A stretch of DNA of 64,000 bases from Heliocidaris erythrogramma (taxonomy: Eukaryota; Echinodermata; Echinoidea; Camarodonta; Echinometridae). Of the stretch, positions 14,576-36,568 are shown piece by piece; positions within the stretch are counted from its first letter, which is position 1; every line of letters starts with the position of its first letter. The stretch is from contig CM046855.1 of assembly GCA_025617745.1 (NCBI GenBank), positions 12,244,380 through 12,308,379 on the forward strand, in the 5' to 3' direction. The notes beneath the pieces were generated by a model, which was not told the origin of the DNA, did no database searches, and was given only the letters and a program-made list of their open reading frames with translations. The translations under genes were made by a program, and so were the position numbers.

Positions 14576-15709
14576 CTACACACCCTCCGGCTGAATGGCA
14601 AGCACTTCGCCCTCAATTTGACGAAGGTCGATCATCTGACCAGCAACCCCTACAACCTGATTCAACTCTTCCCTGATTTGAGCTACAATCTCCTCCAAGT
14701 CGTGGGTTGTTCCCTCATTATGTATCTGGTTGTCAGAGCTCAGATCTTCGAGGTTGCGAAAGCAGCCTATCTGCACGTCCTCTGGACTATTGCTACATTC
14801 TAATATCAGCTCTGTCTCTGCAAGAGTTGCATGTACAATTTCACCTGAGCTACTATCAACATGTACGTTTGAATTCCCATCCCTTGGCTCATCTCTACTG
14901 CTGAGGAGGAATGTATCAGGCCCACCACTTTGCGTTACAGTTTGTGGCACATCTAAAGAATCCTGTAGTAGTGGTGGTTCAGAGTTGTTTGTTAACACAG
15001 AGTGCTGCTCAAGCAAATCTCCATCTTCCGCAGAGCCACCATCTATCTCCTCTTTGCTCTCAGCCACTTTCTTGCCCACATCCTTTTCTTTCCTCTCTAC
15101 TAACAGATCCCTTTCATGTGGTTCTTCCACTGAGAGCACCTCTTCATCTCTGGAGATTTCATCTGAACTATCATCAGTTACAAGTAGGAACTTATTAACC
15201 TCATCAGATGTATCCTTTCTGCCATCAAGTAACTTTACAGATGTTACACCTGTATCAAATGCTTTGGACAATTGAGACACTTCACTTGTTTGCTTCGAAT
15301 TACCATCAGATGGGGGAACCTCTACCACATCTTTGTATACATCATCAATGATTTCATGAACACTATCTCCCTGCGAATTGGAAGCCTCCACTGCATCATC
15401 TACAGCTGTGCTAGAGCGGACTATCTCTACATCTTCAGTGACATCGCCCTCATATCTGGCTCGTTTCTCATACGATGGAATCTGCAATCTCCTTGGGACC
15501 ATACTGTGACAGTTGTGTAGCAGAACACACTGTGGATGGAGGCCTCGGTCGCACGATGAACATGCTGTACGGGTGATCTGAGACTTTCTTGATGTGGAAC
15601 AAACACAACAGTAACGTGTTATGCCATCACTGACCTCCACATACCCCATGTCGTCATCATCATCATCATCATCTTCATCTTCAAATGGTTCTGGATTACC
15701 TGACGTATC
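14576..15709 (-). CDS. Zinc-module gene, exon Z12 (last module, acidic tail, stop)
   Basis: This 1,134-nt terminal exon (377 codons plus TAG) has acceptor TTGCATTTATAG. It opens with an acidic run (EDE then eight Asp), then module 10: CCVC, 12 residues, CSSC, then DRGLHPQCVLLHNC. About 300 residues rich in Ser, Glu, Asp and Val follow, probably disordered. The tail ends in a potential helix around IREELNQVVGVAGQMIDLRQ and the C-terminus AIQPEGV. Its length and unbroken frame strongly support real coding sequence. Confidence 0.88.
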   Translation of the reverse strand, partial: DTSGNPEPFEDEDDDDDDDDMGYVEVSDGITRYCCVCSTSRKSQITRTACSSCDRGLHPQCVLLHNCHSMVPRRLQIPSYEKRARYEGDVTEDVEIVRSSTAVDDAVEASNSQGDSVHEIIDDVYKDVVEVPPSDGNSKQTSEVSQLSKAFDTGVTSVKLLDGRKDTSDEVNKFLLVTDDSSDEISRDEEVLSVEEPHERDLLVERKEKDVGKKVAESKEEIDGGSAEDGDLLEQHSVLTNNSEPPLLQDSLDVPQTVTQSGGPDTFLLSSRDEPRDGNSNVHVDSSSGEIVHATLAETELILECSNSPEDVQIGCFRNLEDLSSDNQIHNEGTTHDLEEIVAQIREELNQVVGVAGQMIDLRQIEGEVLAIQPEGV

Positions 15710-18700
15710 CTATAAATGCAAATAGAAATATGATAATTTTGAGAACCGCATAACATTACAATGATAAGAACATCAAGACATTTCTAAAAGGAATACAGGA
15801 AATACATACTTAACATCAAATATTCAAATATTTATATTTATATTGCAATATAGTTCAAACATTAAACTGAAGGGTCATTTCAACTCCTTACCCCTTCCCA
15901 TACATTTACTAATTCATTTTTATTCAAGTCATAAGCCATATATTTTTGCATTCAAACATCAGTATCATTGATATAATTTGAGCGCCCCAATCCAATTTAA
16001 ATTCTAGGCTGTCCTAGTTGGATCACTTCAATATTTAAGGGGGTCCACAATGATATCATGTTGGTTTTAAAATAAGCACAAATTAAAGAAACAGATTACT
16101 GAAAGTTTGAGCAAAATCTGATAAGAAATAAGAAAGGTATGAATTTTTAAAGTTGTAATTAATTAAACGCAAATTTGTAAGTATCTTGCAAGGTCCTCTC
16201 CCATTTGCCCTATACTAAAAAATTATAAATTTTGACTTTCTCTAAAGAAAATATCAAGCATACATGCACCCCATTTATTCCTTCATCAAAAAATTAAGAA
16301 AATGACAATTTATACTTTATTTTTTTTTGGTATAGAGCAAATGGGAGAGGACTTTGCAGAATACTTCAAGGAGTGACTAATTTGTGTTTCATTTATTACA
16401 ATTTTAAAATTCACAACTTTCTTATCGCAAGATATAAAACATCAATGTTCCCATGAAATTTATAAAGAAAAATGAAATAAAATTATCAAATTGATATGTC
16501 ACACCAACACAAACTATCAATTATGCCAGCAAGGAAATCAAATATCCTGAAAATATCAATATAGTAAAATAGAAATTTACTGATGCAATTTGCATTATCC
16601 AATGTATTTTCACTGAAGAAACTATAAGGCCTCTAAAATAAGATATGCTCGATGCTAATCAAGCTTAAATCATCCCAGTGAATGTAGGTAACATTAGGAT
16701 GCACTGAATGCAGGGGACTCACCATCTCATTGAAGTTTTCAGAAGGTGCAATCATAGGACACATATGCTGTGGAGCACAGATCCTGTGCAGTCCTTTCTT
16801 ACAATGGGGACACATGGTGCTGGACCTACTGCGCCTCCCTGCCTTACGGTTGGAACAAACCGCACAGTCTTTCTTCCTAGTCTTGACATCACTTACAAGG
16901 ATTCGAACCACTTCACCTGTGAAACGTCCACCTGTAATCACCTTCAAAATGAGAAAGAAAATTTTCAATGTCATTTTCTCAATACATTTATGAAAAAAAA
17001 AAATTCTTATAAATTAAGCAGAGATTAAACTCCCTTCGGCATCATGGATTTGAACATGGCTGATAAAAGACATAAAAACTGAAGAATTAATAAGAAGTAA
17101 CAAGAACAAACACTGCATACTAATAACCGAATACCCTCCCCGCCCCCCAACTACAGCTCTAACGTAGCCAAAATGAGATAGACCTTTGAGGTTAACAATT
17201 TGTTCATTTCATAAGGAAAATCAAATTGACAAGAAATTTCAAATCCTAAGTTTGAAACCAACTTCCTTCACTTTATGTGAAATATTCTTTATGCCAAGGC
17301 TCCCTTCACTGAAGAGAAGAAGTCAACTGTACTTACATGAGTATTATTTCCTTTGGAAGCGTCATTGACCTTGCAGATATGACGCCACTCACAAGTGAAG
17401 TGAACATTTTCTCTACAGACACGGCAAGCCATCCTGGTTTTCTGAGAAGAAGGGCATACCGTGCAGAATTTGTCCTGGCCTGTCTTCAGAAGTTTAGAGC
17501 CCCTATTTCTGTCGTATTTCATAGGCACTGGAGAATGGTCCTAATGACAGGAAAGAGCAAGAAAATTCATCCACCTGCTTCCAATAGTGTACATCAATTT
17601 ATTGAAGATACTATTTTTAACATTTGGAATGGTCATAAAAGCAACATCACATCATTTTTTTTTTAAATGAGTGATGTTTAGTAAAGGAAAAAGTAATGCC
17701 CCCAACAAAGGAATTAATTAATAAGGTTGAAGATTTGTCAATTTGTTGGTCAATTGAATCTGGTGTCGCCGAAACCACTGACCCGTCTCCGTGGTCTATT
17801 GGTTAAGGCATTGGTGTTCTATGCCAACGACCAACACCTACATGTATCTCCGACGGAAAGGTTAATCCTAACAAAGCCGTTTATTCCGTAACAATAGAAA
17901 TTCAACGTTAAAGCGAAGGCGAACGTATGTTAAGGCGAATTTGAACAATAGGCTGAGATAAAAGGATTCGCCTTAACGGTACATGTAGATATATACAGTT
18001 AACAACAAAATTATTCATACCCCTTGGAAAATTCTAGTTTTTTGCATTTTTCCTAAAAATGAATGGTTAAATGAAGTTACTTGCATATCACTTGAATACA
18101 TTTAGTTATCATCTACAAATGAATGCCGTTTCCGGTTTCACCTCATTTGCATAACAATAGAAAAGGTGAGTTATCCAAACTGGGCGATGTTCAAAATTAT
18201 TCATACCCTTGGTGGTTTATTGACTTTGTCAATCAGTATGAATCCGATCATTGTGATTAATGCTTGTAATTCACTTTATTTTAATACACCGTCACAAGGC
18301 TTCCGGAGGGGTCTCTGCTGGGATATCAGGCCAGTACCTGTTCTCCAATGGCTCAATCTCCTTGAGGATGTGTCCACACATGCCTTCACCTGACCTTCAG
18401 GGAGTTCATTAGATTTCGTATCCTACAGGTGATGCAGTTATCGACTTCATGATGACAGGACTATGATATTGAAATTTTCGGTCATTTATTCCATGCATTT
18501 TAATGAAAATTCTGTATCTACTTATGAAGCAAAGCACCATTCCTGAAGAGCCCTTCCCTTTTGCACTGCCTGTGGGAGGGTTCACCTTTATTCATTGGCC
18601 CCATTCTTAATCAGAGTGCTCAGGAAGGCCATGTTGGTGATCTTAAAGTCATTGCATGACTCTAACGTCAGGTCACCATGAATAACAGTATGTAACCTTT

Positions 18701-21700
18701 GAGTACCATACACATCCCACATTGACTGTTACTGTATATCAATCTTCATATGGTATATTCTTTGTATCTTTGGTATGAAAGCTACAATCTTTGATATCAA
18801 AATGAATGTAAACCAAATTTATACCATATGCCCTCCATGTTACCAGCTGCAGTGCACAAAATTCTACCACTTTGACAGTGCACTGGAACATAAAGATCAG
18901 TATTTTAAGCTTCACTAGAGTACCCACTTGCAGGTGTCCATATCAAAAATGTATCAATCAGTGTAACTGAATAAACTGATAAAATTGGCACCATCCAAGC
19001 TTTAGACAACTACCATGGCCTCCGTAAACATTCTTAATAATAATGGAACAAAAGTATCAGGAAATACCTTCCCTTGACAGTGCAACAGTGAATGCCTCTA
19101 GGGAAGTCTCTCCTGGAAGAGTGCTTTGTTTCAACTTAGATACAGAATTGTCATTAAAATGTAAGGAATATTAACGAAAATATCAATATCATAGTCCTAT
19201 CCTCTAAAAAACTACGCCACCTGCAAACACAAAATCTGCTTTAAATCCATCGAATCCCCTGAAGACCAGGTGATGGCATGTGTGGACAACATCCTCAAGG
19301 AGATTGGGCCATTGGAGACCAGGTATTGGCCTGATATCTCAGTAGAGACCTCCAGAAGCATTGTGACAGTGTGAAGAAAGTGTTACGAGCATTAATCACA
19401 AGGACTGGATTCATACTGATTGACAAAGTCAATAGATCACCAGGGGTATGAATAATTTTGAACATCACCCAGTTTGGATAATTCACCTTTTCTATTGTTA
19501 TGCAAATGAGGTGAAACCAGAAACAGCATTCATTTGCAGATGATAACTAAATGTATTCAAGTGATGTGCAATTAAATTCAGTTAACCATGCATTTTTAGG
19601 AAAAATGCAAAAAAACTAGAATTTTCCAAGGGGTATGAATAATTTTGTAGTTGACTGTATATATATTCTAGCAGAAGCAGCCCGGACATCCACGGGCGCT
19701 AGCTGTGTTTATGATTAATCACCGTACCGTATATTTGTTACAATAATCAAGTGAATAAATAAAAAAGTCGGGTAAAGTTATTTTTACCAAGAAGTATTTA
19801 CAACATGTCCATTGGCGGAGGGGGGGGGGGGGGTGCTTCTGGCCCGTGCCATCCCCCCCCCCGTTCAATGGCAGGAAAGTATGCATTTTGACCATAGACG
19901 ATCCGCCCTTTTGTCGACTGTGCCCCCGCCCCCTTTTAGAATGAAAACTTTTTTTTTGCTTGTCAGAGAATTATGGAAGGACCCCCATAACCACCCCCTC
20001 CTGAGCGAATTTTGTAGGTCTGACGAAAAAAAAATTCTCGCCACCCCCCCCCCCCCAGGTCTGCCTTTTCCAAAAGTTGACAAACCTGCACTTGTGTTCC
20101 CCGCCTTATACTAAATTCTGGATCCGCCCCTGATCATGTGAGTATGTCTTATTTATCCAAAGCTTGCATGAGTTCTGAAGAAAATGCATTTTCATCTTGA
20201 TGAAAATTAATGATATGGATATAATAATGTTCGAGTAGAATATCCATGCATAGACCTAGAGGGAGCGATTTGATCTTGCCATGTTTCTGTGGTTTAATAC
20301 CATTAATTAAGGCCATGAAAACATAACATCCATAATTAGCGGTACGTCCCCTGTAAAGGATGCAAAAATGAGAAAAAATGAATTTGTCATTTTTATTTTC
20401 AGTGGGATTATGGCCCCTAGCTATGATGGGTCTTGGGAGGACCGACGGATTGACTTTCCCCTACTACCCCCCACCCCATTCCATTGTCATCCCATCATCC
20501 CAGCGCGAGGGGAGAAGGGATTAATATATCAAATATTTTCGAAGGAATTTTCTTATCAGATTTTCTGATAAAGTGTCAAATTAGGGTCTGTGCTTGCAGA
20601 CTATACCGTACCGGTAGCGAACGTCGTGAAACCATAGAGTTACATACACACTAAACTGTGTGTGTGACCATGAAGCTTCAAATGATGTAACTCTATGCGT
20701 AATGTACCTGTATGACCTGTACACGTGCGAACGATCCAACACGTGTGTATAATACTGTACTGTACATTGAAGCGGATATGGCCACGCTGTTCTAATTTGA
20801 AAGGGCCAGGGGAGGAGCCTATTTGAACAAAAAAAGGAGCCCCAAATCCTTAGTGTATTATATTAATAGATATATACTAGGTGTTACAAAAAACATTTTC
20901 AACTTTTGATCCTTAATAGTTCAAAAACTTTATATCAGATAACACTGACATTGATATGAGCAATAGCTGAATAGTGTACAATTTTGTTGGAGGTAATTTA
21001 AAAATGAAAGCATAAATCAGTTTCATTAAAGGGAAATTAACCTCAGCGTATGAATTAGCTTATTTTGAATGGTGTAGTATATGCCTCTTATTTGATACAT
21101 GCAATTTCATGTAAAAACACAGGATATAGATATAAATCACTATTTTCCAGCCAAGTTATCGTCTGCTAGCAATAATAAGGGGGCTGCCATTACTTTATGT
21201 GTACACGAACATATTTTTCATCCCAAGTAAAATTTCCTTCATCGTTAACTTGTAATTGATTTTTAGAGGACAAATATATATTAGATAAAGTCACATATTC
21301 TGAAATGTAAGTTTAGTTTTATATATTTTTTAAAAGGTCTTAATTTGTTCATAAAAAATATACTTCATAAAAAATATACGTCAAGGACGGAGAATTGACG
21401 TCAAGGACGGAGACAATCGTAACAATACCAAAACAAAGCGAGGAATCTGCTTTACAGGATGGCTATTAGAACTCATGGGTCGTCAATTATCTAGGCCCAT
21501 GGCCAATAACAATCGTAATACAATCAGAACAAAGCGACGTATCTGTTGTAAAGGTAGGCTATTATCAATGCATATGGTACCTAATGATCCGTGTCATGCA
21601 CAAAATGGCAGCCTCCATGGAAAGACGTAGCAGACAATAGGTGCATCTAGAATATCACGTGGGGTTACTTGTCCTTTAAATTCAAGATTAATTTTAAGTT

Positions 21701-22235
21701 GGGTTCAGATTTTGCTCTATTTTCAACCTTCTCTACAAAACTTTAACTTTGCACAGGGGTCAATAGACCTGTTTACTAAGTGATACAAATTTTATGCATA
21801 CTTTTGAAACAAAGGTTGTTCTTGACAACCTGAAAGCTTGCCAGAGGCTTGTCAGACATAGCAACAAGTAATGTATGCAAACTGGATTCCAAGTATTGTA
21901 GTTCATTCATTAATAACAGGTTAATGGAATACCTCGTTACTAGGTCCCCAGGAAAGAAACATCCATAAATTTGAATCACTTAGTAAACAGGTCTATTGGT
22001 GTGTATGGGAGTGTGTGGTTAACACCCAGACAATGGTCCTGGACAATGGCCAGGGTTTGAATGGTTATTATTTATTCATGAAGAATTCCACTATCACAGC
22101 TAGTCTTTATTCATCCTCTGGCATTAACTGTGTAAAGTCATTTCACTGAGATGTCATTTTAATGGATTTTGAAGCAATCAAAGTAGTGCGAATTGATTTA
22201 AGTCATTCAAAGGATAGGAATATTGATGTTGTCCT

Positions 22236-22272
<37 letters not shown>

Positions 22273-22354
22273 AATGATGACAATGATAGTGATGATAATG
22301 ATGACAATGATAGTCATGATTATGATGATGATAACGATTATGATAATGATAACA

Positions 22355-22387
<33 letters not shown>

Positions 22388-25300
22388 ATGATGGTGATGA
22401 TGATTATGATGGTGATGATAATGCTGCTGCTGCTAATAATGATGACAGTGACAGTGATGATGATGTTGATAATGATAACGACGACGACGATATTATTGAT
22501 GGTGATGATGATGATGTTGCAAGCACATGGAAACATGTGCTAACTTTTTTCATGTGCATGCATTTTACCATTTACCATGAATTCAGACTAGCAGTGCCCG
22601 GGGCAATCCATCATGAATTATTAATAAAGCATTCATGTGCCTTGGAGCAAGGGACCAGAAGCCTGGTCAGCAGAGCTCTGAAAAGGTGGTATTCATGTCC
22701 ATTGTTCAGGGTCACTGTAAACACACACTCACATACACATCATTGGTTCCTGTGTAAAGTTCAAGTTTTGTACAGAGGGTTAAAATTTGACCAAAATCTG
22801 GAACCTAACTTTAAAATTAATCATGGATTTAATGAAATTTATTTATGCTTTCATATTCAAATCACCTCCAACTAAATTGTACACTATTCAGCTATTACTC
22901 ATACAATGACAGTGTTATCTGATATATAGTTTTCGAACTAATAAGGATCAAAAGTGGGAAATATTTTTTTTAACACCTAGTATATATATATGTATGTGTG
23001 TGTGTGTGTGTGGGTGGGTGTCAATCACAACTGCAATAAAGACATCATTTCTTGCCTATAATCCCTCATGTTAATTAGAATAATGTGACATTACACACAT
23101 TGAAACAAATTCTTTTAATAATCTATATTGGACTTGTCAACTTTTGAATGTCATATACACTGGATAAGGAAAAAGACAACTTACAACATCCATAAAATTT
23201 TTACTGGATGTAGAGGGTGTTGAGAGCTGTTGCTGACTGGGTTCTGGGGAGGGCTCTTCCCTTACATCATTCATCTCATCATCGTTTGGAATGGCGGCTG
23301 GCATAGTGGGTTCAGTCAAAGCAGTGATTGATGAATCCTGCATTATGAAACGTTACAAACATATCACTTTTTAATAATCAATGTTCATTCTTACTCCTTT
23401 TTCTGAACTCTGAATGCCTTATTTTTTGCACAAACATGGCCTTTGAGTACAGCAGAGTAGTTCAATTTCATTAAAATGCTTGCACTATTTTTTTTTCTTG
23501 TAAAAAATGGGGAAGGAGGTAAATATAAAAACAGAATTTGGTGCAAGCTGCACAGTGTACATATTTAAGCTGCCTGTGTCTGCTTCAGAAACAGTTTATC
23601 TTAACATCCAGGTTGCTTCCTGGTAATTGAGGGAGAACAATTATACTACCCTGGTTGCTTTTTGTTTTTTTAAACTTACGCTCCCCATCAGAATAGAGCG
23701 ATCATATGCCATTTTTGGTTTTGATATTTGAGAAATATTCATTCATATACATGTATATCATTTCATTTCAAGATAAGAAAACAGCTTATTATACACAATT
23801 GGAAACCTACATTTGAATTGGCAAAGCTGCTTCCAGGGCAGATATGCTGAGACAGACACCTGACATGTAGGCCCCTCCTACAAACGGCACACTGTGTCCT
23901 TGATCTTTGTCTCTTCCCATCCCGCATCTTTCCTGAACAAACATCACATGCTTTCCTTCCATCTTTCACCTCACTGTTCTCTATCCGTACCACAGACGGT
24001 CTCTCCCCAACAAATGTGCCTGTGCTCTGTGTGGTTTCAAAAGAGTATATAGACTCACTACCATTTGCTACATTTTACATTGTTTAATTAAACACCACAT
24101 CATTCTAAAGGAATGGAAAGGCATACTGAAATTGTGAATGTACAATTGGAAAAGAAAGAAGAAACACAATATTTCTTTCCTTCTTTTCAACGATCCCCTA
24201 AAAAGTGTTCACATTAAATGTTTGATATGTTAGAAGCTTTCATAGCAACTTCCATCCAGCATATAACGGACATTCAACCTTAACAACAATACTACCGATA
24301 CCCACTTTTGTCCTGAAACTAATCACACGTTCTCGCGGAGTGTTGTTTTTTAAAATTCCATGGACACAGAGAAAGAATGAAGGTAGAGAAGATTAGAAAA
24401 GCCAGTTTATACATATTTTTACATTTCTTTCATCCCTTTACAATGATGCAAAAAGGTGGTGATAATACCAATGATGATAACAATCCAAATAATCTGTCAG
24501 GAGCTTCCACTCTAGTTACACTGTTCTGACTCACAGAATGAATGATCATACTATCTCAAACATAAAAGAAAAGTAGCCTGTCAGGTGAACACTGGAACAT
24601 GTTAGTTGCATCACATACCATGTTTGGTGCATAAGCTCCTGCGTTCTCCTGATCCCTTTGGCACTGATGGCGATAGAAGCACTTCTTGTGCACCCCTTTA
24701 TGACACACATTACACATGAGATGGGTCATCTTCTTGTTTCCATCATGATAGGCACACTCCTTGCAGTCTATTAATGTTTGCGGCACACACTTGATCAACA
24801 TTGGTATAACCTCTGGGTTATCTCTATCTGACAAGTTTTCACTTAGCTGATGGGGTTCCCCTGCCATGTCATCAGGCTGCAAGACAAAATGATTGCAATA
24901 CTTAGATTAATGTTACAATTATTCATATTTATCTGGACCCTGTTTCATAAAACTTGTTATCGACAATAACTTTCACAATTCCTTTTACGAATTTGCTTAC
25001 AGCCAATCAAATGTAAGGATTTTAGTATCTTACATTGTTACTGATAACAAGTTTATGAAATAGGGCCCTGGGGCAGTATTCAATTCAGAACCTGCTTTAA
25101 GTACACATTTTACCTTGCGCATTTGGCTTGAGTAAAGTAAACGGTGTAACTCATAAAGCAGGACAGACGGACAACCTGAAAACATAATGCCTCGGCACCA
25201 CCTGGGTGGTGGGCATAAACATGGGCGAAAGGAAACTCTATAAATCATTTGACTGAGAAGTGATGAATTTGAACCAACACCCTAATGATTGGCCATTTTG

Positions 25301-28300
25301 AAGTTTGAGATTTCAACCTGAGCAGATGCTCTGTAAGCCCCTAGAATGATTCAAATTGTATGATGCTTCCTCGAGTGTATGTGCACAAAACATTAACAAA
25401 TATCTGCATCAGCATGGAGCAGTGGGAAACTATAAATTTTGCATCCTCATACATTCTTTTCCATGAGTGTATCCAATCAAAACACTGGTTTATTTCACAT
25501 ATAAAGCACTATGAAGTATATGAGGCAGCGAGAGTTTTATCAATGTTAGCAGATATATATATTGGTTATTTCTGAAAAGCTGAAAAAGTGTCTCCAAGGG
25601 GGCAGAATCTCATTCCATTTGCGCAACGCTTCCGCGCATGCTACCTTTTAGTCTGTATTAGATTTGATAGCTCTAGGGTTTGGAACTCACCTCATCAATC
25701 CAGCCATACATTGTTGTCTTATCCACTGCAGAGCTCACAGTTGGAATATCGAACTAGCATAGACAAATAAATGAATTTACATTGAGTTTAATGACTAAAT
25801 CCGCATAAGAGTACAGCTTCAACTGAATATAAAATGCTTCCAAATATATGTATTGGGTGCATCCACTTTACACAATAATAGACCATGTGATGACATGGAA
25901 AAAAGAGGCTCCGCTTTCCATTTTCGTGGTCCACATTTTCGCCCCACCTGAGAAGTTGGGGACAAAGGTACTTTTTTGTGCTGAATTCAAATATGAATGT
26001 TGCCAACCATGAAACTTGTAAGTTATCACTGTAATGAGATCTAATTATGCAAATTTATGCATAATTCATTGTTTAAACTACAATACACAAAACATACACT
26101 GGTATCTTCTTAATAAAAAAAAATTAGTATTTCAGGCTAATCTGGACTGCATCATCTGAATGTGAATATTTCTCAACCATACACATGTATATTTTTTTAT
26201 AGCATTGACGCCTAATTATGCAAATCAGACATCAATATGCAAATCCACTTTTTGGGCTATTTAACTAATAATACTAATATCAAGAAATCACATGAAAGGT
26301 GATATTTCAGGGTTACTTTGGGTGCTTAATCTAAATATGAATGCTGTGAATCTTGGAACTACAATAAGCAGGCTGAATCTAGTTATCTTAAATTTTAGGT
26401 GCTATATATTTCTGGCACTTCTGGCACCATTTACCAATGCATCCTTTCATACACTGATTCAGACATCAATTCTAAAAAGGTCTATTCAACTCTTTATTCG
26501 CCATGGATCAAGTCCTGGACTGCCACTTTGTTTGGAGTATATTACAAATATACAATGTACGTGTGCCAAAAGTCGACTGTGGCAGTACGCTTGTTCCACT
26601 GGTCAAAAAAAGCCAGTAAAGAGTTAATTGATTGACTGAAGCAACAAGTCAGAATTAATACCTTTGGATGTTGTTTGCTGAGTCCACAGACATGGAACTG
26701 AAGACACCTGTAATGTAGTCCCTTCTTGCATAGGCTACACTGAGTGTAGGCCCTTTTACGTCTTCCCCAGCAGGTACGACTGGAGCACACGATGCAGTCC
26801 TTCCTTCCATCCCTAACATCATCCCCAAGGATCTTCATAACAGTTGGTTTCCTATTACTCTCACCGTCATCCTGTTTTCATTCAAAGAAAGAAAGTGAAA
26901 AATCTGTACTCATGTTGTCTTGGATGATACCTATTAGCCTGAAATGAGTCCTTGCTATGATATGCTAAAATTCATATATTTTCGGAATAGGTAATAATTT
27001 TCTAAAAAGTCCCTCTTTTTACTAGAAAGAACATTTATCTGTTGCAATGAACCTTTTCTCTGATGTTTGACTGTATCTAAATATCTCTGATACTGAACAA
27101 AAGAGAAAGAAGTGAAAACTTATCTTATGCAATGTAGTTCTTCTAAACTAGTAAAAAAAAAAATGACTGTCATCACCACGAAGAAACATGGAAGCTGAAT
27201 TTCATTGACAGAGCAACTGGATTTTTTTTCTTCATTCAGTTGACAACCCAATGCTTCATTTGAATCCAATGTAAATTCAATTTGAAACAAAGAAAAAAGT
27301 AAAGGGGGAATGCTTCCTCCAACTCACCTGTAAAAGACTATGTCCTTGAGCTGAATCGACATTAGCTTGGTTGGCTGCATTGGAATTCAACTCACAGCTG
27401 TTCTCAATTTTCACTCTGGTAGTAGATGTCTGGGCAAGAGTTTTCTGGTGAGTATGTGTTTGAGTTTGATGTGGTCTCAGTTGGAGTTGCAAGAGTAACC
27501 CTTCTTGGGTATTGAGCTCTATGTGAGAGTTGAGTTGAGGATTTGCATCAGAGATGCTCCTGCTGATGCTCTGAGTTGACATTTGATTTGCTATATGTGG
27601 TTGACTGCTACAGTTGTCTAGCAATGTGCCATGGGCTTTGGAGTCTGTCTTTCTCTTCTTTTTTGGATTTTCGCTGAAACTTCTATGTAATTCCTGAAAG
27701 TTAAACATACAAACAATTTATGAAAATGAACAGTCAGAAATTCAGTATGTCGTTTCATTTTGGAACTTATTCTACTAAAACAAGACAGACATTCATATCA
27801 AATGCAGCTTATCACACTTTAAGCTCAGAGACCTTTAACAAAATACATACAAAAGAGAAACCATTTGGACACATTATAACATTCAGTTACCTTTGCTCCA
27901 CACATATACAAGAAGTTGTCTCAATCATGGAAAAAAAGAAGCAGCATATCGCAACAACCATCAAAAAACAGCAACAAAAACCTTTGCTACTGAATACAGT
28001 CTTGGTTGAAGACGAGTCCAGGTATTTTAGCTGAGACGATTTAATTGCTAATTTATATTCACCTCATCACTTTTCTAAGAGGATCCAGCATCATCTTAAA
28101 GACCGGCATAAATTCACTTGTTCAGACCTCCTCTGGTCATGAGGGAATTAATCGCTAAATAAGACTGTATTCAGGTGCATGACTTCTTACAAACACAGTA
28201 TAAAAATATATATCATGATATATTTTGTTCATATTCATACATTTTCAGTGACTTCTCCTGAATTCTCGATCCAGGGACACAGGTGCTTATGTTCGCATTT

Positions 28301-31300
28301 CCGATGCAGGCCTTTCTTGCAAAACCTGCATATTGTCCTGGATCTGTGTCGCTGTCCCAGCTTGCGTTGTGAGCAGACAATACAATCTCTTCTCTTTCTG
28401 TTACCACCAGTCAAAAACACCACATTACTACCCCCATCAATGGACTGAAAGATACAAGACAAAGATCATATACAAATTAATGGTGATTCAAACAATCATA
28501 ATACAATGCCAACATTGTTCAAACATTTACAGGCCATATCAAAACTGCACAATTATTTGTTTATTTATTTATTTTTTCTTTACTTTTTTTTTTTGGGGGG
28601 GGGGGATAGAGTGTCATATTACGTACACTTTCAGATACAAGATTTGCCTATTTGTTATGAACATAATTGTCAATGACGTTCCATCATCATAGATTTAAAC
28701 ATAATACACAGATTGATGCAACTTTCCTCTGTGAACTGAGAGACACAAGGAGTTATCCAGCATGAATGAATCCATCTGACTTCCTAAAAAGGGTGGGCTG
28801 CAACAGCCCATTGTTAAAAAAAGGCAATTTATTCTAATACATTTTTTGTAATCTACAAAATTAGAACTACATGTATACTTCTCTACTTCTATTGTAAAAT
28901 TTCTACAATTGATTTTATAATCATATAGCTTATAATCAGCCTACATACCCCACTGCTATCACATATGAGTAACAAATTTACCTGAACAGTGTCTGTTGTC
29001 ATTAGCTCACACTTGTGCTTGAATCTGCACTCCCAATGCAACCCTTTCTTACAGTAATAGCACACTGTTTGAGACCTGCGCCGAATTTGAACACCTGCAC
29101 CTCTATGAGAACAGACACAGCAATCTTTCTTTGCCTTGCATCTCTCCAATCGGAACGATTTCTTTGGCTGCTGTGCCTGAAAAGCAAGGGTATCATATAC
29201 TGAATTATAAGGATCCCAAAGTCAAAAGTGGAAAAAGCACGCAAAAGGGTTTCATATTTAAAGGAGAATGAAACCCCAAACTTGTATGCACTTTAACAGA
29301 GGCAGAAAAATATTAGAAGCATATCACTGAAAGTTTGCGGAAAACTGATAAAGAATAACAAAGTTATAAGATTTTAAAAACCTAAAAATCACTAAATGAA
29401 ATTGGCAACATACTCATTATGCTAATGAGATGCTATGATATTTTTGTACTCACTTTATAGGTACTAAATAAGAAAATTATCAGATTTCAGCATTTAAACA
29501 AAGAAAATTGAATTATCAACATTGTGCTTGAAATATATTGCGGAATAAATTAATGAACACCACCTATAATACAGAAATCAAATTTTCTAAGATATATTCA
29601 AGGAAAGTGGATTTTTACATTATTTTTATAAGGCAATTGGAAAGTGGATTTTTACAACATTATTTGTATAAGGCAATTGAAAAGTAGAGCACATTTACAT
29701 CACAGCATCTCATTAGCATAATGAGGACATTGCCAATTTCAGATCTCCATTCATTTAGCGATTTTAGGATTTAAAACATTCATAACTTTTTTATTAGCTG
29801 TCTGTTTTTCCTCAACCTTCCACTGATATGCTTCTTTGATTTTTCTGCTTCTATTAAAAATGCATTTATTTTGGGGGTTTCATTCTCCTTTAATTTCATT
29901 CAGGCACAAAACAGACACTGACGACCCCTTCAAGATTTTTTAGACTTGTCATTAGCCTACAATATAATCAGGTATTGTTTACACAAAATGACTAATAAAG
30001 TTTTGACAAGCTTTGTACGATGTACAAGAAGAATTGCAATTCAATAAATTGTATTTTTGTGAACTTACACTAGAATTTGGCTAAAAGCAGTATTTTTTTA
30101 CTTTCATCTTACTTGTCAATATTACTTTCCCGGGCCCCGTTGCATAAAACTTACCATTAACGGTAACTTTGCCATCAATGGTAACTCCCATGGAAACCTT
30201 GATTTTGATTGGCTGTTGAGTGATGTTACCATGGTAGTTACTATTGATAGCAGAGTTACCATTAATGGTAAGTTTTATGCAACGTTTGGTGCATGCACTT
30301 AAACCCTTTCGAGATAATTTGCATTTTGTGGGTTGGCTCAATAACTTTTGATTCAGAGCTCTAAAGAATATACCAGATGCATGAGTAGAAAGAGCAAAAA
30401 TTTCTGCAGACACTACATGTATGTCCATTTTTGTTGTATGACCATATTGTGTTAAATGCTAGGAATCTATCAAACATGAATAAGCTTTAAAATCCTGAAG
30501 TTGGCAACACATTGAGAGGTTTGAAATCATTGTTTTTTTATCAAACTTGGCAATTTTTAAAACTTTTTGACAAGATTCCTAACCATGTATATTGTTTTTA
30601 AAGACATTACACCTAATTAGAAGCATGTAGCACTACAAGAAAAATACTCTTGTTGCCAATTTGAAGAACAAAATGTGATCAATATAGCCCTGAAATATTT
30701 CTTTTCCTGAAAGGGTTAAACATTGTTACATGTATCTACATTTTGTTGAAATTGATTGAAGATAATTTAAATACAGTTATGAGGAAATGGGTGGGGGGAG
30801 CATGTGCCCCCATGAAAAAAGAAAATAAAAAAAAAATAAGAGAGGGAAAAAGAAAGGCAAAGAAAGGGACAGGAGGAAAGGGAACATGTAAAGACAGGAC
30901 CCCCTACCACACCTCCCTATCGATAGCCTCGTTAATTTGTATTTCAACTACTCTGTAAGACTGGTGGCCCCCCCCCCCCCCAATAATGCCAGTGCCCCCT
31001 GAATGGCGGCACAAATCAGTTGAAAGCTGGCCCATGCTGCACACACACACACCAAACTTCACATTACAGCTTCTCCACAGCATCAGCTGCATAATAATAA
31101 TACTAATTTAAAACAAACCCATACCTGTGGTGGTTTTGCACGGTGACCAAACTTTGAATACTTCTTCTGCAAGACCTGACTGAGGGGAGGGTTTTTGTGT
31201 TGAGCTAGTACAGGGCAGTCATGGTGAGCTCTACACACCTCATGGAGGTTATGGTCACACCCAGCACACATAGCCATCACACCACCTTGCTGACATTCAA

Positions 31301-34300
31301 TGCATACTCTTGCTGGAGCATGTATCATGATGCCATCTATTTCAGTACCCTATTAAAGAAAAAAAAATGGATCAAAGCTTGTAAGATGCCATACTAGGCT
31401 AAAATGAAGACGTATTATCAGTATCATATGCTACTCAATATGAATATGAAAACATTACCGGTAATTGCTGGTTGTATATGAACCCCCTTCACATGTTTTA
31501 AGTCTAAAAATGAGATTTTTCAGGATGGTGTTGTTTTTTTTAATAAATTAAAGGTGATGAATCACTATTGTTGTTTTTTGTTTTGTTTTGCTCTGTATGC
31601 TTTGGGTTCCATTCTGAAATCTCATATTTAAATATATATGTAACTGGGTTGGGTGAATCAACGTGATTAAAAAAAAAGCTCATTGATTGAAATCACTTCT
31701 TTTATAAGTGACAAAAGGTTTGTTGTTGGTAGTTTTAATCCTTCAAATCATCTACTTCCATCAGAATCAAAGATAAGTACATGTACGTGATCAGCAGTGA
31801 CTCAATTTTGGTGTAAGTATGTACATGTATGTAAAGTTTTTCTTTTGAAATTTGAATTTCTTGTCGGCTCTCAGTGAAACATGTTTCCTATTTCTTTCTT
31901 ACTACAGTTATCACACAATGTAACAGATTTTTTTTCACAGAAAATTTTGTAAAAATCACAATAACATAATGTAGTATAGTCACACTCTGACTGTTGTACA
32001 GCTGTCTCTTATATTCCTCTCCAACACTGACAGTTCATTTTATGTTCAGTGCTTTGAATAATAACAGAAGTTTCGCATCCCTAGCAATGGAAGAGCTTTA
32101 CTATTAATTTGTAAAACTCAAAATAAACTAAACATTACCATTTAAATGTTACAAATGGGTACTTTACTACAATAGTAACAGTGCCCCAAAAGACGGATTT
32201 TGAACAAAAAAGATGGCTTCTCTGTCTTTTTCAATGTAACCGGGTGACCCCAACAACTGTTCCATTTGCCATTCCAAAAATCGAATGGCAAATTTTGAAA
32301 GAAGACGGCCCCAGACCTGAGCCGTACTTCGTGGAATGTAACCGAGGGCAAAGAAATTGCTGTTCAAAATATAATTATACAAATATAAAGAGCATTAATT
32401 GAATAAAATATGTGCACTTGCGCGTGCTTCTGCATGATGACGTTATTGGCAGCATGCCTGTACAGATAATAAGGGAGGGGGGGACGTATTTTTTTTGGTA
32501 ATATAACAGGGGACGAAAATAGAATAGCAATTGCGTGCTTGATTAAGTGCTACAAAAAAAGTGGGGGAATTTTCTCGGACTTAATGGTAATCCATAGTGG
32601 GGGAATTTTCTCTACTTAATGGGAATTCCCTAGGGAAGTTTCCTACCGGTATGTATGTATCTTGGGAAATTAATTAATCGAGCTTAATGATTTCTCAAAT
32701 GGATTTTGATTTGTCGGTTACTTAATATTTTCAATTGGGCTTAATTACAAAATATAATGTTAAGAACAATGTTAGGAGTAAAATTTATGATAAGATTAAG
32801 ATGTTATCATTAGGGTAAGATTTCTTTGTAATTGAACATCATTTCTGATTTTATAAAAATCAAACAAATTTAACAATCTGATTTGTTCGAAAAAAAAATC
32901 AACAACAAAAAATTGCCAACCCTTTATGTAAAGAGATATTGCGAGTTCATATATCGAAATTGCAATGTAAATCAAAGGTAAAGCAACTTGGACCAATACT
33001 ACCATAAAATTCAGCATAAAGTGAAGTCAACCCTAGTTAACTAAATCTTAAATAGTTTTCTCTCTCTCTTAATGGTCTTCAATCATAAACTTTCTAAATG
33101 TCCCATGTAGTTTGGGGAGATGATTCGATATTGTCTTCCTTCTGGCAATATATACAAATTAAAATATTGGGTGATTTCAAGTCTCTTTTGATACATTATC
33201 AGTTGATAATCTTTTCGGGTTTTTTTTTTACATTGGTTATTGTGTTAATCTACACTACCACTGAACCATGACCTTGGCCTAATCTGTGGATTACCATTAT
33301 AAATATTGTATATCATACAAGTGAATACAGAACATACTTATTTCATGACTATCTTTTATGGGCCTTTCGTGTACATACATACATTCTACAGTGCAGGCAG
33401 TTTTTTTTTATATTCAATTTCCTGGCACCCAGAGACTCTGTACAGGGGCCCCTATGCAGGGCCTCAGGGTAATAACAGGAAGTCATGTCAGACCTGATAA
33501 TTAGCAAAGGAACCCCAACATGAACAAAATTTGGAACACAAATGAAGGGAATGAAAAAACAGTCTGTAGTGTATGCAACTTTCTGAATTGCCTGTATTAC
33601 AATTTAGTGGACAGTGTTCTTTCTCTCTCTTTCTCTTCTGCAAATATGGTAACATTTCCATGATAGCAAAAGGAAATTATTAATAACAATCCAGTCTTTA
33701 AATGAATCTTTTTCTATACCCATTGTATTTACAGGGCCTCCGATACCTGCTGTTATGATCAGGAATGTTTACTTCTCTCTTGATCAAGTCAGTCTTTTCC
33801 AGGATAATGTACTATTCGGTTTACTAAACAAGGGTTAATAATAGACTGTCATATCCCTCTCAAGTACCAGTCAATAATTTATAATCATTATTCTTGTACA
33901 GGATTTAAGAGCTCAATAATAAGTGTTAGTTTGTTGACACACTTTATAAACCTTGACCCACTTTAGTTGTTGAACACAACATATATCTAATCTTCAAGAC
34001 CAAATAACTAAAATATTATAAAAAATAAAAAATAAAATGGATACACACAACATGTTTTGCCTATTATTAGTCTACCATTTAACTTTCAATTTTCTATGAG
34101 CTGATTCAGATATTTATGAGTATTTGCTGAAACTGATAGATCAAATACCAAATTTCAAAATACTTTAAATGTAGTTATCATTAAAGAATGTGAAAATGAC
34201 TTAAAAACTAAGACCTTACAATAGAATAATAATAATATTGGATGTTTTAATATGGCCTCTACTAGAAATATCACACTCTATATTATGCAAAAAATATTGG

Positions 34301-34662
34301 ACTCATCTTGGAACAGTACAGTACATGTATATTCTCAAATAATTCCCTGTATTGATCACAAGACCATCCAATATTATATGATATAAAATAATCACCTCTG
34401 TTTTTTCATCTAGTCCATCTGTATCAGCATTTACATCACACTGATGGAGCACAGAGCAATCTTGATGAAGCCCCCGGCCACAATTGCCACAGACAGTGGT
34501 TGTCAAATGACGTTCATCCACATGAGTAAGACCACTGCTGCATACACTGCAAGCCAGGTAGCCCTGTGAATTCTGCTCTTTATCAATGCCAGTCTGCAAT
34601 GGTCCAAACCTTTCAGAGCTGGTTGACATTCCTCCATGCTTTCGTTTGAGGTTAGCTGGGGC
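14576..34662 (-). CDS. Unrecognised nuclear-type protein with ten repeated Cys/His zinc modules (12 exons, about 1,216 codons seen)
   Basis: Twelve minus-strand exons with good GT..AG sites join into one open frame. All exon lengths are multiples of three and all junctions are phase 0. Ten exons carry C-x2-C-x(8-16)-C-x2-C-x4-H-x2-C-x3-H-x-C, mostly with KKGLH or RGLH before the fifth ligand and basic residues between the CxxC pairs. The spacing resembles the zinc ribbon at the C-terminus of piggyBac transposases and also the first six ligands of a PHD finger; neither fits fully. One non-zinc exon has the nuclear localisation signal PKKKRK, and the last exon has an acidic Ser/Glu-rich tail. 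A nuclear DNA-, RNA- or chromatin-binding adaptor is the likely class, by inference. The first coding exon is missing: a Met in frame occurs just upstream (about 34687) but the phase-0 acceptor at 34663 fits better. Confidence 0.8.
16030..16490. mobile_element. Foldback/MITE-like inverted repeat in a zinc-gene intron
   Basis: The arms around 16110-16215 and 16330-16440 are imperfect reverse complements, sharing GTCCTCTCCCATTTGC and a GATAAGAAA..AATTTTTAAA segment. The ends are not sharply defined. Confidence 0.6.
16723..16941 (-). CDS. Zinc-module gene, exon Z11
   Basis: This 219-nt exon has acceptor TCATTTTGAAG and donor ATG|GTGAGT, phase 0/0. It encodes module 9: CAVC, 14 residues (SNRKAGRRSRSSTM), CPHC, then KKGLHRICAPQHMC. 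An alternative acceptor (ATTACAG) nine bases inside would remove three codons and keep the frame. Confidence 0.85.
17337..17540 (-). CDS. Zinc-module gene, exon Z10
   Basis: This 204-nt exon has acceptor CCTGTCATTAG and donor CAT|GTAAGT, phase 0/0. It encodes module 8, a short version: CTVC, nine residues (PSSQKTRMA), CRVC, then RENVHFTCEWRHIC. Confidence 0.83.
17996..19657. mobile_element. 1.66-kb Tc1/mariner-like element with long foldback arms and IR/DR ends
   Basis: It is flanked by TA and starts CAGTTAACAAC, ending GTAGTTGACTG. Arms of about 600 bp are inverted copies of each other. Each arm holds two direct copies of AAAATTATTCATACCC, one at the tip and one about 185 bp inside, which is the IR/DR layout known from Sleeping Beauty-type Tc1 elements. 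The arms carry decayed coding-like sequence but no intact transposase. Confidence 0.8.
19800..20125. repeat. G- and C-run-rich dispersed repeat
   Basis: Several G or C runs of 9-16 bases and an end GGATCCGCCCCTGA. It looks like a piece of a dispersed repeat; family not recognised. Confidence 0.4.
21026..21679. mobile_element. 654-bp TTAA-flanked MITE, copy 2
   Basis: Same length and nearly the same sequence as 1272-1925 (one clear difference near the right end, GTTACTTG versus GTTAATTG). It sits at a TTAA in the left arm of the 20.88-22.98 kb element. The right arm keeps the uninterrupted site. Confidence 0.88.
21761..21998. mobile_element. 238-bp foldback MITE nested in the larger element
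   Basis: The ends CAATAGACCTGTTTACTAAG and its reverse complement continue inward for about 37 bp with few mismatches. Confidence 0.75.
22239..22516 (+). repeat. GAT trinucleotide array
   Basis: About 280 bp of GAT units with AAT, GAC and AGT variants. Open frames on both strands (poly-Asp, poly-Met, poly-Ile) are repeat artefacts. It is internal to the long-TIR element. Confidence 0.9.
22987..23014 (+). repeat. TG microsatellite
   Basis: A TATG/TG run just outside the right end of the long-TIR element. Confidence 0.8.
23185..23337 (-). CDS. Zinc-module gene, exon Z9 (linker, no zinc module)
   Basis: This 153-nt exon has acceptor TTTCATAATGCAG and donor GTT|GTAAGT, phase 0/0. It encodes 51 residues rich in Pro, Glu, Ser and Gln (EEPSPEPSQQQLSTPSTSS), a disordered, PEST-like linker. 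Confidence 0.7.
23811..24026 (-). CDS. Zinc-module gene, exon Z8
   Basis: This 216-nt exon has acceptor ACCACACAG and donor AAT|GTAGGT, phase 0/0. It encodes module 7: CDVC, 15 residues (SGKMRDGKRQRSRTQ), CAVC, then RRGLHVRCLSQHIC. A VKDGRKAC lead matches Z6. Confidence 0.83.
24619..24876 (-). CDS. Zinc-module gene, exon Z7
   Basis: This 258-nt exon has acceptor TTTGTCTTGCAG and donor ATG|GTATGT, phase 0/0. It encodes module 6 after an acidic lead: CKEC, 13 residues, CNVC, then HKGVHKKCFYRHQC. This is the only module with the CF-x2-H spelling, which is the closest in the array to piggyBac-type CF..H ends. Confidence 0.83.
24935..25068. mobile_element. Small MITE, GGRCCCTGTTTCATAAA type
   Basis: Inverted ends GGACCCTGTTTCATAAAACT and its near reverse complement enclose about 90 bp. 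It resembles the element at 30132-30285 in size and end wording. It lies in a zinc-gene intron. Confidence 0.7.
25150..25230 (+). repeat. Fragment of the AATGCCTC..GGCACCACC repeat end
   Basis: CAGGACAGACGGACAACC and AATGCCTCGGCACCACCTGG match the right end of the ~150-bp arrays at 11 kb and 41 kb. Confidence 0.6.
26662..26871 (-). CDS. Zinc-module gene, exon Z6
   Basis: This 210-nt exon has acceptor AATGAAAACAG and donor AAG|GTATTA, phase 0/0. It encodes module 5: CIVC, 15 residues, CSLC, then KKGLHYRCLQFHVC. The lead-in VRDGRKDC closely matches that of exons Z8 and Z11, showing that the repeat unit is longer than the zinc core. Confidence 0.85.
27328..27693 (-). CDS. Zinc-module gene, exon Z5 (no zinc module; nuclear localisation signal)
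   Basis: This 366-nt exon has acceptor TTAACTTTCAG and donor CAG|GTGAGT, phase 0/0. It encodes 122 low-complexity, Gln/Ser/Asn/Thr-rich residues with no Cys pairs. Near its start is PKKKRK, a classical monopartite nuclear localisation signal. A KIE motif (VKIENS) near the end would suit SUMO attachment, as inference only. It looks like a disordered linker between module groups. Confidence 0.78.
28241..28444 (-). CDS. Zinc-module gene, exon Z4
   Basis: This 204-nt exon has acceptor TATCTTTCAG and donor AAT|GTATGA, phase 0/0. It encodes module 4: CIVC, 14 residues (SQRKLGQRHRSRTI), CRFC, then KKGLHRKCEHKHLC. Confidence 0.85.
28982..29176 (-). CDS. Zinc-module gene, exon Z3
   Basis: This 195-nt exon has acceptor TTGCTTTTCAG and donor CAG|GTAAAT, phase 0/0. 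It encodes module 3: CCVC, 16 residues with an RRR patch, CYYC, then KKGLHWECRFKHKC. A Lys/Arg-rich lead (QQPKKSFRLERCKAKK) precedes it. Confidence 0.85.
29258..29893. mobile_element. 636-bp TTAA-flanked MITE, second family
   Basis: It starts TTAA-AGGAGAATGAAACCCC and ends GGGTTTCATTCTCCT-TTAA. The arms are inverted copies over about 190 bp (CTCATTATGCTAATGAGATG versus CATCTCATTAGCATAATGAG). There is no coding frame. The TTAA target again points to piggyBac-type mobilisation. Confidence 0.85.
30132..30285. mobile_element. Small MITE, GGGCCCCGTTGCATAAA type
   Basis: Inverted arms GTTGCATAAAACTTACCATT and its reverse complement enclose further inverted copies of TTACCAT..GGTAA. It lies in a zinc-gene intron. 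Confidence 0.75.
31125..31349 (-). CDS. Zinc-module gene, exon Z2
   Basis: This 225-nt exon has a strong pyrimidine-rich acceptor ending TTTAATAG and donor CAG|GTATGG, phase 0/0. It encodes module 2, the most divergent and shortest: CIEC, eight residues (QQGGVMAM), CAGC, then DHNLHEVCRAHHDC. The first half looks PHD-like. The basic segment KKYSKFGHRAK follows. Confidence 0.78.
31350..34395 (-). other. Zinc-module gene intron between Z2 and Z1
   Basis: A 3-kb AT-rich intron. No exon or mobile element was recognised apart from short CT runs near 33056-33070 and 33618-33640. Confidence 0.55.
34396..34662 (-). CDS. Zinc-module gene, exon Z1 (first one found)
   Basis: This 267-nt exon starts after ...CTGACACAG and ends GAG|GTGATT. 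After a basic stretch (ANLKRKHGG) and a Ser-rich linker it encodes module 1: CSVC, 16 residues, CGNC, then GRGLHQDCSVLHQC. The frame is open upstream to 34779, so an alternative start or acceptor is possible, including an in-frame Met near 34687. The acceptor was chosen because it gives phase 0, as in every later exon. Confidence 0.7.
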
Positions 34663-36244
34663 CTGTGTCAGAGCAATCATGGGAAACCTTGTTGGATGAT
34701 CGATTGCTTGTTTGCTAAACTTCATAAACAAAACCAATCCAGGTATCATAACCCATTTCAAATCTATTCGAGTCGACAAACTTATGTACTTACTAGTTAA
34801 ATTGTTAATTATCTTCTTGTACTCTAATAATGGAGAAGAAATATAATGTACAGCCTACACACATGTACTGCATGAGAGCTCCGACATCAGGCTATAAGAC
34901 TACTACATGTAGTTCTAGATTCTATTGGCATTCTGAAGTCTACATTCAGGTATAAGCCTATACTGTACATGTATTTTGTAATTCAGTATAGACGTATGTA
35001 AGAAGTCACACAATATAATATACAAATTTTGCTACAAGAAGGGAAAACCATTTTGACAGTTTCTTCTAAATGACATGAACAAGCTTCCTGTATTTCTAAA
35101 ATTCACAAAGAACAACACTAAATTAACTACATGTAGTATCTCTGTGTACAATACTCTATGCAACAATGAGTAAACTGTAAGCTCGATCATAAACACAAAA
35201 AGCAGAATTTTTCTGAGTACCTTTCTACACTGTGGGACCTACATGGTGCATAGGGCTACAAACAATAACAGACACTCTAAAAAGTAACACTGACAATACA
35301 CTAACCTTATGAATAAATGGTAAAGAAGTGTTTGTCGAAAGCGGTGTCGGGTAGCAGGTCGTGCAGGCAACATGCAAGCTAACAGTTGCTGGCTGCAATT
35401 CAAGTGCTTGCAGCACTGAGGCTATGAATTTGCACTTAGGCCATCATCAAATATGAAATGTATAAGTGTGTATTAACATCTGCTTTGACAGTTTAAATGA
35501 CTCATTTCAAGGACTGTATTTAAATACTAAGGTTTTCTTTTTATCCCGCTGCTCATGACGAACAGATAAAAACAGGCAAAAGGGTAAGAAGCGGTATGCT
35601 ATTAACTAATTACTTTTCATGTATAATGGTTATCAATTGCATGCATGCATGCACTTGGACTGTGAACATATATAATTTAAGCCTAAATGTATTTCATTGT
35701 ACAATATGAGGGATAAACCTATTTTCATATTATACAAGACAACAAAGAAGCCTTTAATACAAAGTATTCAAATTTTTAGCTGGATTACATTTTTGTTAAA
35801 GAACTACATATAATAACAACTGTCAAAATAGATTCCACTTCTTCTGTAGCAAAATTAACCTCCAGAATATGCATCACTACATGTACATATAGTATGCAAC
35901 TTCAATCGTATTGAAATTAATTTGTGTCAAGAAGTGATGTAAACATCTGTGAAGAAAATGATAAAAATGATCATTTTGAAAATGATTTTTCGGTAATATA
36001 TGAATTAATCACAAAAAGTGAAAAAATAGAAATATGTAGAATATGTAGAAATATACAACGAGGTGCAAAGAGACATGAAAATATCTTAAAAAGTATCATC
36101 TATAATTTAAGAAGAGCACTTGCATTACTATGAAAAACATTGAGGAAAATCTAGTAACTGAACTGAACTTGATATCTTCGCCTCTCTGTCTCTCTCTCTC
36201 TCTCTTTCCATTCTCTTAAAATCTCTCTCCATTCCCTTTTGCCT

Positions 36245-36425: not shown

Positions 36426-36568
36426 CTGTCTTGAGTGCCGTAGAAGATCTGTATTGCCTGCAGAGTCCTGAGCTGTTCCTATGCCCGAGTCAGGTGGTGA
36501 GTCCAGCTGTATTGTTACAGGTCCATCATTCTGTATATGAACTTGCATGTACGCTCCAAATTTACCAT
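36426..36568 (-). CDS. DTD1: DTD1 exon 5 (catalytic GP motif and divergent tail)
   Basis: This 143-nt exon encodes DGKFGAYMQVHIQNDGPVTI, carrying the NxGPVT motif that gives DTD its chirality filter. A variable Ser/Asp-rich tail follows (LDSPPDSGIG to LLRHSRQ). The donor CAG|GTGGGT is acceptable but not optimal. If unspliced, the frame continues about 25 codons to a stop at 36351. In known animal DTD1 proteins the segment after this motif is also poorly conserved. No convincing next exon was identified. Confidence 0.93.

Follow-up and report, generated by a model that had tools for sequence, protein, structure and literature searches.

Ten tandem zinc modules similar to piggyBac transposase cysteine-rich domains lie in frame behind DTD1 exons in the sea urchin Heliocidaris erythrogramma

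The stretch of DNA analysed here, hereafter the window, comprises 64,000 nucleotides of the sea urchin Heliocidaris erythrogramma (GenBank assembly GCA_025617745.1, contig CM046855.1, positions 12,244,380 to 12,308,379). Its minus strand carries exons of DTD1 (D-aminoacyl-tRNA deacylase 1), a tRNA proofreading enzyme, and, downstream of the fifth DTD1 coding exon on the same strand and in frame, an array of twelve exons, ten of which hold a cysteine- and histidine-rich module while two do not. By profile similarity these modules place with the cysteine-rich domain (CRD) of piggyBac transposases.

Scanned in all six frames with a regular expression, the window returns exactly ten occurrences of the pattern C-x2-C-x(8-16)-C-x2-C-x4-H-x2-C-x3-H-x-C, all on the minus strand from 34551 to 15509. 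The alignment of the ten modules contains eight invariant columns, every one of them cysteine or histidine in the order C4-H-C-H-C, and the loop between the second and third cysteines (C2 and C3) varies from 8 to 16 residues. An earlier note on this DNA had described the ten modules, their ligand series and loop, and twelve consecutive phase-0 exons, and all of this holds: by inspection of the splice sites, which were picked by eye and with a simple consensus score, each of the twelve exons (34662 to 14576) is a multiple of three in phase 0, and together they run in frame to one stop. The exons are given below; those entered simply as module exons rest on the pattern scan, the alignment and the splice sites.

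34396..34662, minus strand, module exon
31125..31349, minus strand, module exon, the weakest of the ten in the left-out test (E 0.0012)
28982..29176, minus strand, module exon
28241..28444, minus strand, module exon, with profile searches in addition to the other evidence
27328..27693, minus strand, exon without a module, rich in Q, S, T and N, containing PKKKRKT
26662..26871, minus strand, module exon
24619..24876, minus strand, module exon
23811..24026, minus strand, module exon
23185..23337, minus strand, exon without a module, acidic and rich in S and P
17337..17540, minus strand, module exon
16723..16941, minus strand, module exon
14576..15709, minus strand, last module exon (pattern scan, alignment, splice sites)

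In the left-out test each of the ten modules is recovered by a profile of the other nine (E 5.1e-17 to 0.0012). Among 2,771 open stretches of the window the ten-module profile matches all ten modules at E ≤ 1.8e-14, the next stretch following at E 0.13, and a profile search of the six frames of the window finds no further modules in the introns. The module cores range widely in net charge, five of them lying at +8 to +13, three at +3 to +5, and modules 1 and 2 at -2; the C-terminal tail of 310 residues is acidic, with a net charge of -45. The exon at 27328..27693 has no match to a Pfam family over the cut-off, and its PKKKRKT stretch is one that we take to resemble a nuclear localisation signal. 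Judging from the exon phases, skipping of any module exon before the last would keep the reading frame. A long simple repeat of GAT type (22202-22543), open in several frames and by appearance noncoding, lies in the intron between exons 23337-23185 and 17540-17337.

None of the ten module exons passes the Pfam gathering cut-off, which agrees with the earlier note in so far as it knew of no named family with exactly this array. Sub-threshold matches only are obtained, including PHD, C1 and zf-HC5HC2H, and a profile search of the PDB returns C1, PHD and piggyBat domains within tenfold of one another in E, C1 leading and piggyBat ranking fifth. Because both searches are ambiguous, the modules were compared with domains from their own genome, for which the listings hold 12 CRD matches (PF13842), 28 C1 matches (PF00130) and at least 150 PHD matches (PF00628). 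The control sets drawn from these are small, with five sequences each: five of ten CRDs fetched (12 listed), near-duplicates and a partial copy being dropped and the transposase L067, described below, left out; five of 20 C1 domains fetched (28 listed), full-length ones, one with an X at the stop; and five of 20 PHDs fetched (at least 150 listed), chosen to be less than 80% alike, many of the 20 being near-identical copies. The ten-module profile matches the CRDs with a probability of 95.4% and a score of 37.5, as against 2.5% and 13.8 for the C1 domains and 10% and 16.7 for the PHDs. When the ligand columns were held fixed and the other ungapped columns shuffled, the CRD score was reached in none of 60 shuffles, the highest being 25.0; in shuffles of the same type the C1 score was reached by 46 of 60 and the PHD score by 14 of 60. 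Since no shuffle attains 37.5, the similarity between modules and CRDs exceeds that imparted by cysteine and histidine spacing. The five divergent modules alone match the CRDs at 90.8%, and dropping any one CRD leaves the probability at 87.4 to 96.2%. Thus the lack of a named family does not stand in full, as the profiles and the genomic neighbours of the modules point to the piggyBac CRD.

Applied in the opposite direction to the 2,771 open stretches, the five-CRD profile has as its four best matches, in this order, modules 4, 9, 1 and 7 (E 5.5e-5, 0.0023, 0.17 and 1.5), only the first two falling below 0.01, and the remaining six modules do not stand out in the window. The C1 profile has no module among its best 15 matches listed, and with the PHD profile module 7 scores E 0.0032 and a background stretch 0.0024. 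The C-x2-C, C-x2-C, C/H and then C-x3-H series of the piggyBac-type CRD is present in all ten modules. Membership of the PHD family was rejected: the C-terminal C-x2-C of the C4HC3 series, well after the sixth ligand (C6), is missing, an H-x-C three residues after C6 occurs in its place in all ten modules, and the profile value of only 10% disfavours an ordinary PHD family. Membership of the C1 family was likewise rejected, the modules lacking its N-terminal histidine ligand and its C-x7-C end, with a profile value of 2.5%. One consensus string matches zf-Tnp_2 in Pfam at E 0.0055, but it was shaped with the CRD in mind and is not counted, and a tree of modules and CRDs branches without resolution. 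The DDE_Tnp_1_7 catalytic domain has no match in the ten module exons, the only part of the window scanned for it. Separately, many of the PHD matches of the genome (at least 150; PF00628 listing, L041-L060) lie in open reading frames (ORFs) of ~1,400 residues on many chromosomes, which suggests a retroelement encoding a PHD finger.

The modules and the transposase CRDs part company at the eighth ligand. In the PiggyMac CRD, as described in PMC8086355, this ligand is a histidine upstream of the first cysteine pair. A histidine 5-19 residues before the first cysteine is found in all six CRD stretches of the genome but in only one of the ten modules (module 2); three more modules have an upstream histidine, but at 24-29 residues. 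In reciprocal fashion, a cysteine two residues after the last histidine (H-x-C) is present in all ten modules and in none of the six CRDs, and the ligand count remains constant at eight despite the change of position. In their C6-x3-H7 spacing the modules agree with the PiggyMac CRD (PMC8086355). Because the ligand change sets the array apart, the modules are not filed as plain members of the CRD family.

Searches of the 1.06 Gb genome were made with three of the ten modules (5, 9 and 4). Matches to module 5 at E ≤ 0.01 are confined to the array. Outside it, modules 9 and 4 both match best to the C-terminus of the piggyBac transposase L067 (G000:C3:38768000-38777900), at E 8.2e-4 and 0.003 respectively; this transposase is encoded in two separate ORFs that match DDE_Tnp_1_7 at E 5.4e-17 and 1.5e-49. 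At E ≤ 1 module 4 has six matches outside the array, four of them piggyBac CRDs (L067, two listed by PF13842 and one by eye nearly identical to L015) and two that look like chance. With the L067 domain as query, the five matches are L067 itself, a second copy, module 9 (E 7.4e-5), module 4 (E 0.0013) and one at E 0.31. As the L067 zinc domain has no PF13842 match and bears a likeness to C1 domains also, the tie of the modules to piggyBac through L067 is one of position behind a transposase in addition to sequence. By pairwise score this domain lies between the modules, the C1 domains and typical CRDs; its second copy, on C5, is 84% identical, and L067 adjoins ORFs that by eye resemble spectrin repeats. 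At G000:C1:4456537-4456800 (L006, L014) a piggyBac-type CRD has its second half repeated within 200 nucleotides, which could be how the duplication of a CRD begins within an element.

Two structure models of a module were compared with known folds. The first has a mean predicted local distance difference test score (pLDDT) of 76.1, and its Foldseek matches are led by C1 domains with a piggyBac CRD at rank 50. The second, with longer flanks, has a mean pLDDT of 72.7 and gives piggyBat 9c0f_D first (E 0.025, probability 0.92) and a C1 domain second (E 0.037); the piggyBat superposition is poor, with a root-mean-square deviation of 7.5, and no match reaches E 0.001. The topology of the piggyBat CRD is itself described as C1-like (PMC11707139), and the fold evidence on its own is weak.

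Outside the ligands the modules share a mean identity of 18%, and similarity does not rise with proximity in the array (678 of 2,000 permutations as extreme). Setting overlapping flanks aside, the exon DNA yields a single match at E ≤ 0.01, 44 nucleotides at 75% identity that the exons of modules 5 and 7 have in common. Recent exon duplication is rejected on account of this low identity, the missing adjacency signal and exon DNA that is nearly unalignable, and for the same reasons the multiplication appears to be old. Growth of the array by exon duplication, as the earlier note had proposed, is plausible, but as an ancient process. Because H5 and C8 are common to all ten modules, a single capture followed by duplication would be the economical reading.

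The gene limits first proposed (14576..34662) are too narrow, since in-frame DTD1 exons lie upstream of the array, the first of them beyond the window.

G000:C3 about 12312443, ~4 kb past the window edge (L061:4064-4023), DTD1 coding exon 1, MRTVIQRVTKASVT, located and its donor read
63667..63757, minus strand, DTD1 coding exon 2, starting GDELISSIGRGLCILVGIS, its first codon shared with exon 1
43582..43684, minus strand, DTD1 coding exon 3, 75% identity to human DTD1
39694..39826, minus strand, DTD1 coding exon 4, containing FTLY and NKPDFH
36426..36568, minus strand, DTD1 coding exon 5, GKFGAYMQVHIQNDGPVTIQLDSP, then a polar linker, without a stop, phase-0 donor CAG/GTGGGT
35758..35946, minus strand, possible alternative terminal exon of DTD1, with a strong acceptor (35946), nine codons that read MFTSLLDTN before a stop, and ATTAAA at 35758

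Exon 2 is 61% identical to human DTD1 (tblastn with human DTD1), and joined exons 3-5 match PDB 2okv at E 4.9e-49. On the joined protein from exon 2 onward, Pfam Tyr_Deacylase (PF02580) exceeds its cut-off at E 2.2e-47, the match running from position 15 to the end of the domain in a query that left out exon 1. A PF02580 search of the genome gives five matches, four at the DTD1 locus and one in another exon, and the copy at the array locus is the sole DTD1 detected. A DTD1 retrocopy, as a possible trace of the mRNA, was considered and rejected, since this second Tyr_Deacylase match is instead what we take from its sequence to be DTD2-like.

DTD1 from exon 2 onward and the twelve array exons together encode 1,373 residues with one terminal stop; exon 1 adds 14, giving a joined model of about 1,387 residues. 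Because the joining is in frame, exon 5 has no stop and no other DTD1 was detected in the genome, a DTD1-array fusion is the simplest model, and the genomic sequence makes it likely that the array is spliced onto DTD1 as one transcript. Two features weigh against this: the putative short last exon of DTD1 (35946, with a poly(A)-like signal), which counts against an obligatory fusion, and a TATA-like site at 35674. Of the whole reading, the fusion is the least certain step. The intron between DTD1 exons 2 and 3 (window 44367-63450) is occupied by ~19 kb of nested retroelement-like sequence with a 904-residue ORF, presumably DIRS-like, that has sub-threshold reverse transcriptase and RNase H matches; pieces of this intron are duplicated at 99-100% identity at spacings of 3.1 and 13.6 kb, and tandem arrays lie at about 57.5-61.2 kb.

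On balance we lean towards the view that the array is a captured, tenfold-copied and altered piggyBac-type CRD in a host gene, most likely spliced onto DTD1. An ancestral piggyBac-type transposase CRD would have been captured as a phase-0 exon, in that direction as we infer, and then copied to ten and altered. The product of ~1,387 residues would join a deacylase with a complete-looking domain to ten CRD-like fingers and an acidic tail, with the PKKKRKT stretch between fingers 4 and 5. Each module is predicted to form a C1-like cross-brace with two zinc ions, held by C1-C2-H5-C6 and C3-C4-H7-C8; the upstream histidine of the transposase CRD would have been lost, and the cysteine two residues after H7 would have taken over as eighth ligand. 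Two CRDs of piggyBat bind to a palindromic DNA site, which is contacted by R543 and E545 of a loop (PMC11707139). The variable C2-C3 loop, basic in most modules, would correspond to this major-groove loop and make most modules DNA binders. At the R543-equivalent, placed at -7 from C3 on an assumed offset of 6, six of the ten modules have arginine and one has lysine, and for this reason, together with the basic cores, DNA binding is to be expected of most modules. The PKKKRKT stretch (27693-27328) and the acidic tail suggest a nuclear protein, and the tail may contact chromatin or transcription proteins. As DTD enzymes are dimers, up to twenty fingers could act together. In its fullest form, put forward as a tentative possibility, the proposal is that an enzyme of tRNA proofreading now heads a nuclear protein that binds DNA or chromatin as a dimer with twenty fingers, a piggyBac CRD having been captured, multiplied tenfold as an exon and rewired in its ligands; exon skipping could then vary finger number in frame.

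The modules might alternatively be an independent, divergent branch of C1/PHD cross-brace domains without any special tie to transposases. The weak Pfam matches to PHD, C1 and zf-HC5HC2H are what such a branch would give, as are the slight lead of C1 and PHD chains over piggyBat in the PDB profile search, the first and second places of C1 in Foldseek for the first and second models, and the pick-up of module 7 by the PHD profile (E 0.0032). However, this origin is improbable in view of the CRD comparison (95.4% versus 2.5 and 10%) and its column-shuffle control, of the piggyBac CRDs that are the nearest neighbours of modules 9 and 4 outside the array, and of a C6-x3-H7 spacing reported for the PiggyMac CRD (PMC8086355) and unlike that in the PHD and C1 domains of the alignments.

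A different question is what the modules bind. Because the PiggyMac CRD binds histone H3 and not DNA in the account given by PMC8086355, binding of histone tails or proteins is kept as a rival, by which the array would be a chromatin reader after the manner of PiggyMac. The same source reports H3 binding for the Tpb2 CRD as well as that of PiggyMac (PMC8086355), and the net negative cores of modules 1 and 2 and the acidic tail would be consistent with this role. Five modules are strongly basic, however, also in the loop whose piggyBat counterpart touches DNA (PMC11707139), and the surface of the PiggyMac CRD is described as mainly negative (PMC8086355), unlike these basic modules; a chromatin reader thus seems rather unlikely.

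If the array does derive from a captured and multiplied piggyBac CRD, it would show that poly-zinc-finger proteins can arise by another route in addition to that of C2H2 arrays, and a zinc ligand would have migrated from one side of the domain to the other. The domestication of transposase parts is well known, and it is the partner and the ligand swap that are unusual here; among the top-ranked open-access literature matches there is no report of a multiplied piggyBac CRD array or of DTD1 with zinc fingers. The CRD of piggyBat and PGBD2/3/4 (Pfam zf-Tnp_2, PF13842) is alike in its cross-brace of C-x2-C, C-x2-C, H/C and C-x3-H, in giving the best of the three profile comparisons and the first Foldseek match of the second model, and in the loop after C2 that contacts DNA in piggyBat (PMC11707139). 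It differs in being single where the array has ten in tandem, and the array has no DDE match in its module exons, lacks the nearby upstream histidine in nine of ten modules, has the extra cysteine in all ten and falls below the Pfam cut-off.

Fusions such as CSB-PGBD3 and KRABINER keep the transposase or its DNA-binding part, whereas here the zinc domain alone would have been kept, in multiplied form, and its host partner edits tRNA. In both of these a transposase-derived domain is joined to a host protein (PMC12062965). At the present locus, the host domain and the putative transposase-derived domains share a reading frame with one stop in the genomic sequence. Tandem copies of a zinc domain are carried by FLYWCH1. 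The FLYWCH domain, derived from a Mutator transposase, is likewise a transposase zinc domain turned host DNA-binding module, but it belongs to another transposon superfamily and fold (PMC10027918); the survey of transposon-derived animal transcription factors in that paper covers six families, and its main text makes no mention of piggyBac (PMC10027918). For the host enzyme a parallel exists in the lineage-specific tail of vertebrate DTD1/DUE-B, should the present reading be true. That tail is, to our knowledge, without zinc fingers. DTD1/DUE-B has the same enzyme core and likewise a lineage-specific C-terminal extension, for which a role in DNA replication has been proposed (PMC12262730), but its tail is of about 60 residues, as compared with ~1,200 residues and ten modules here if the fusion is real.

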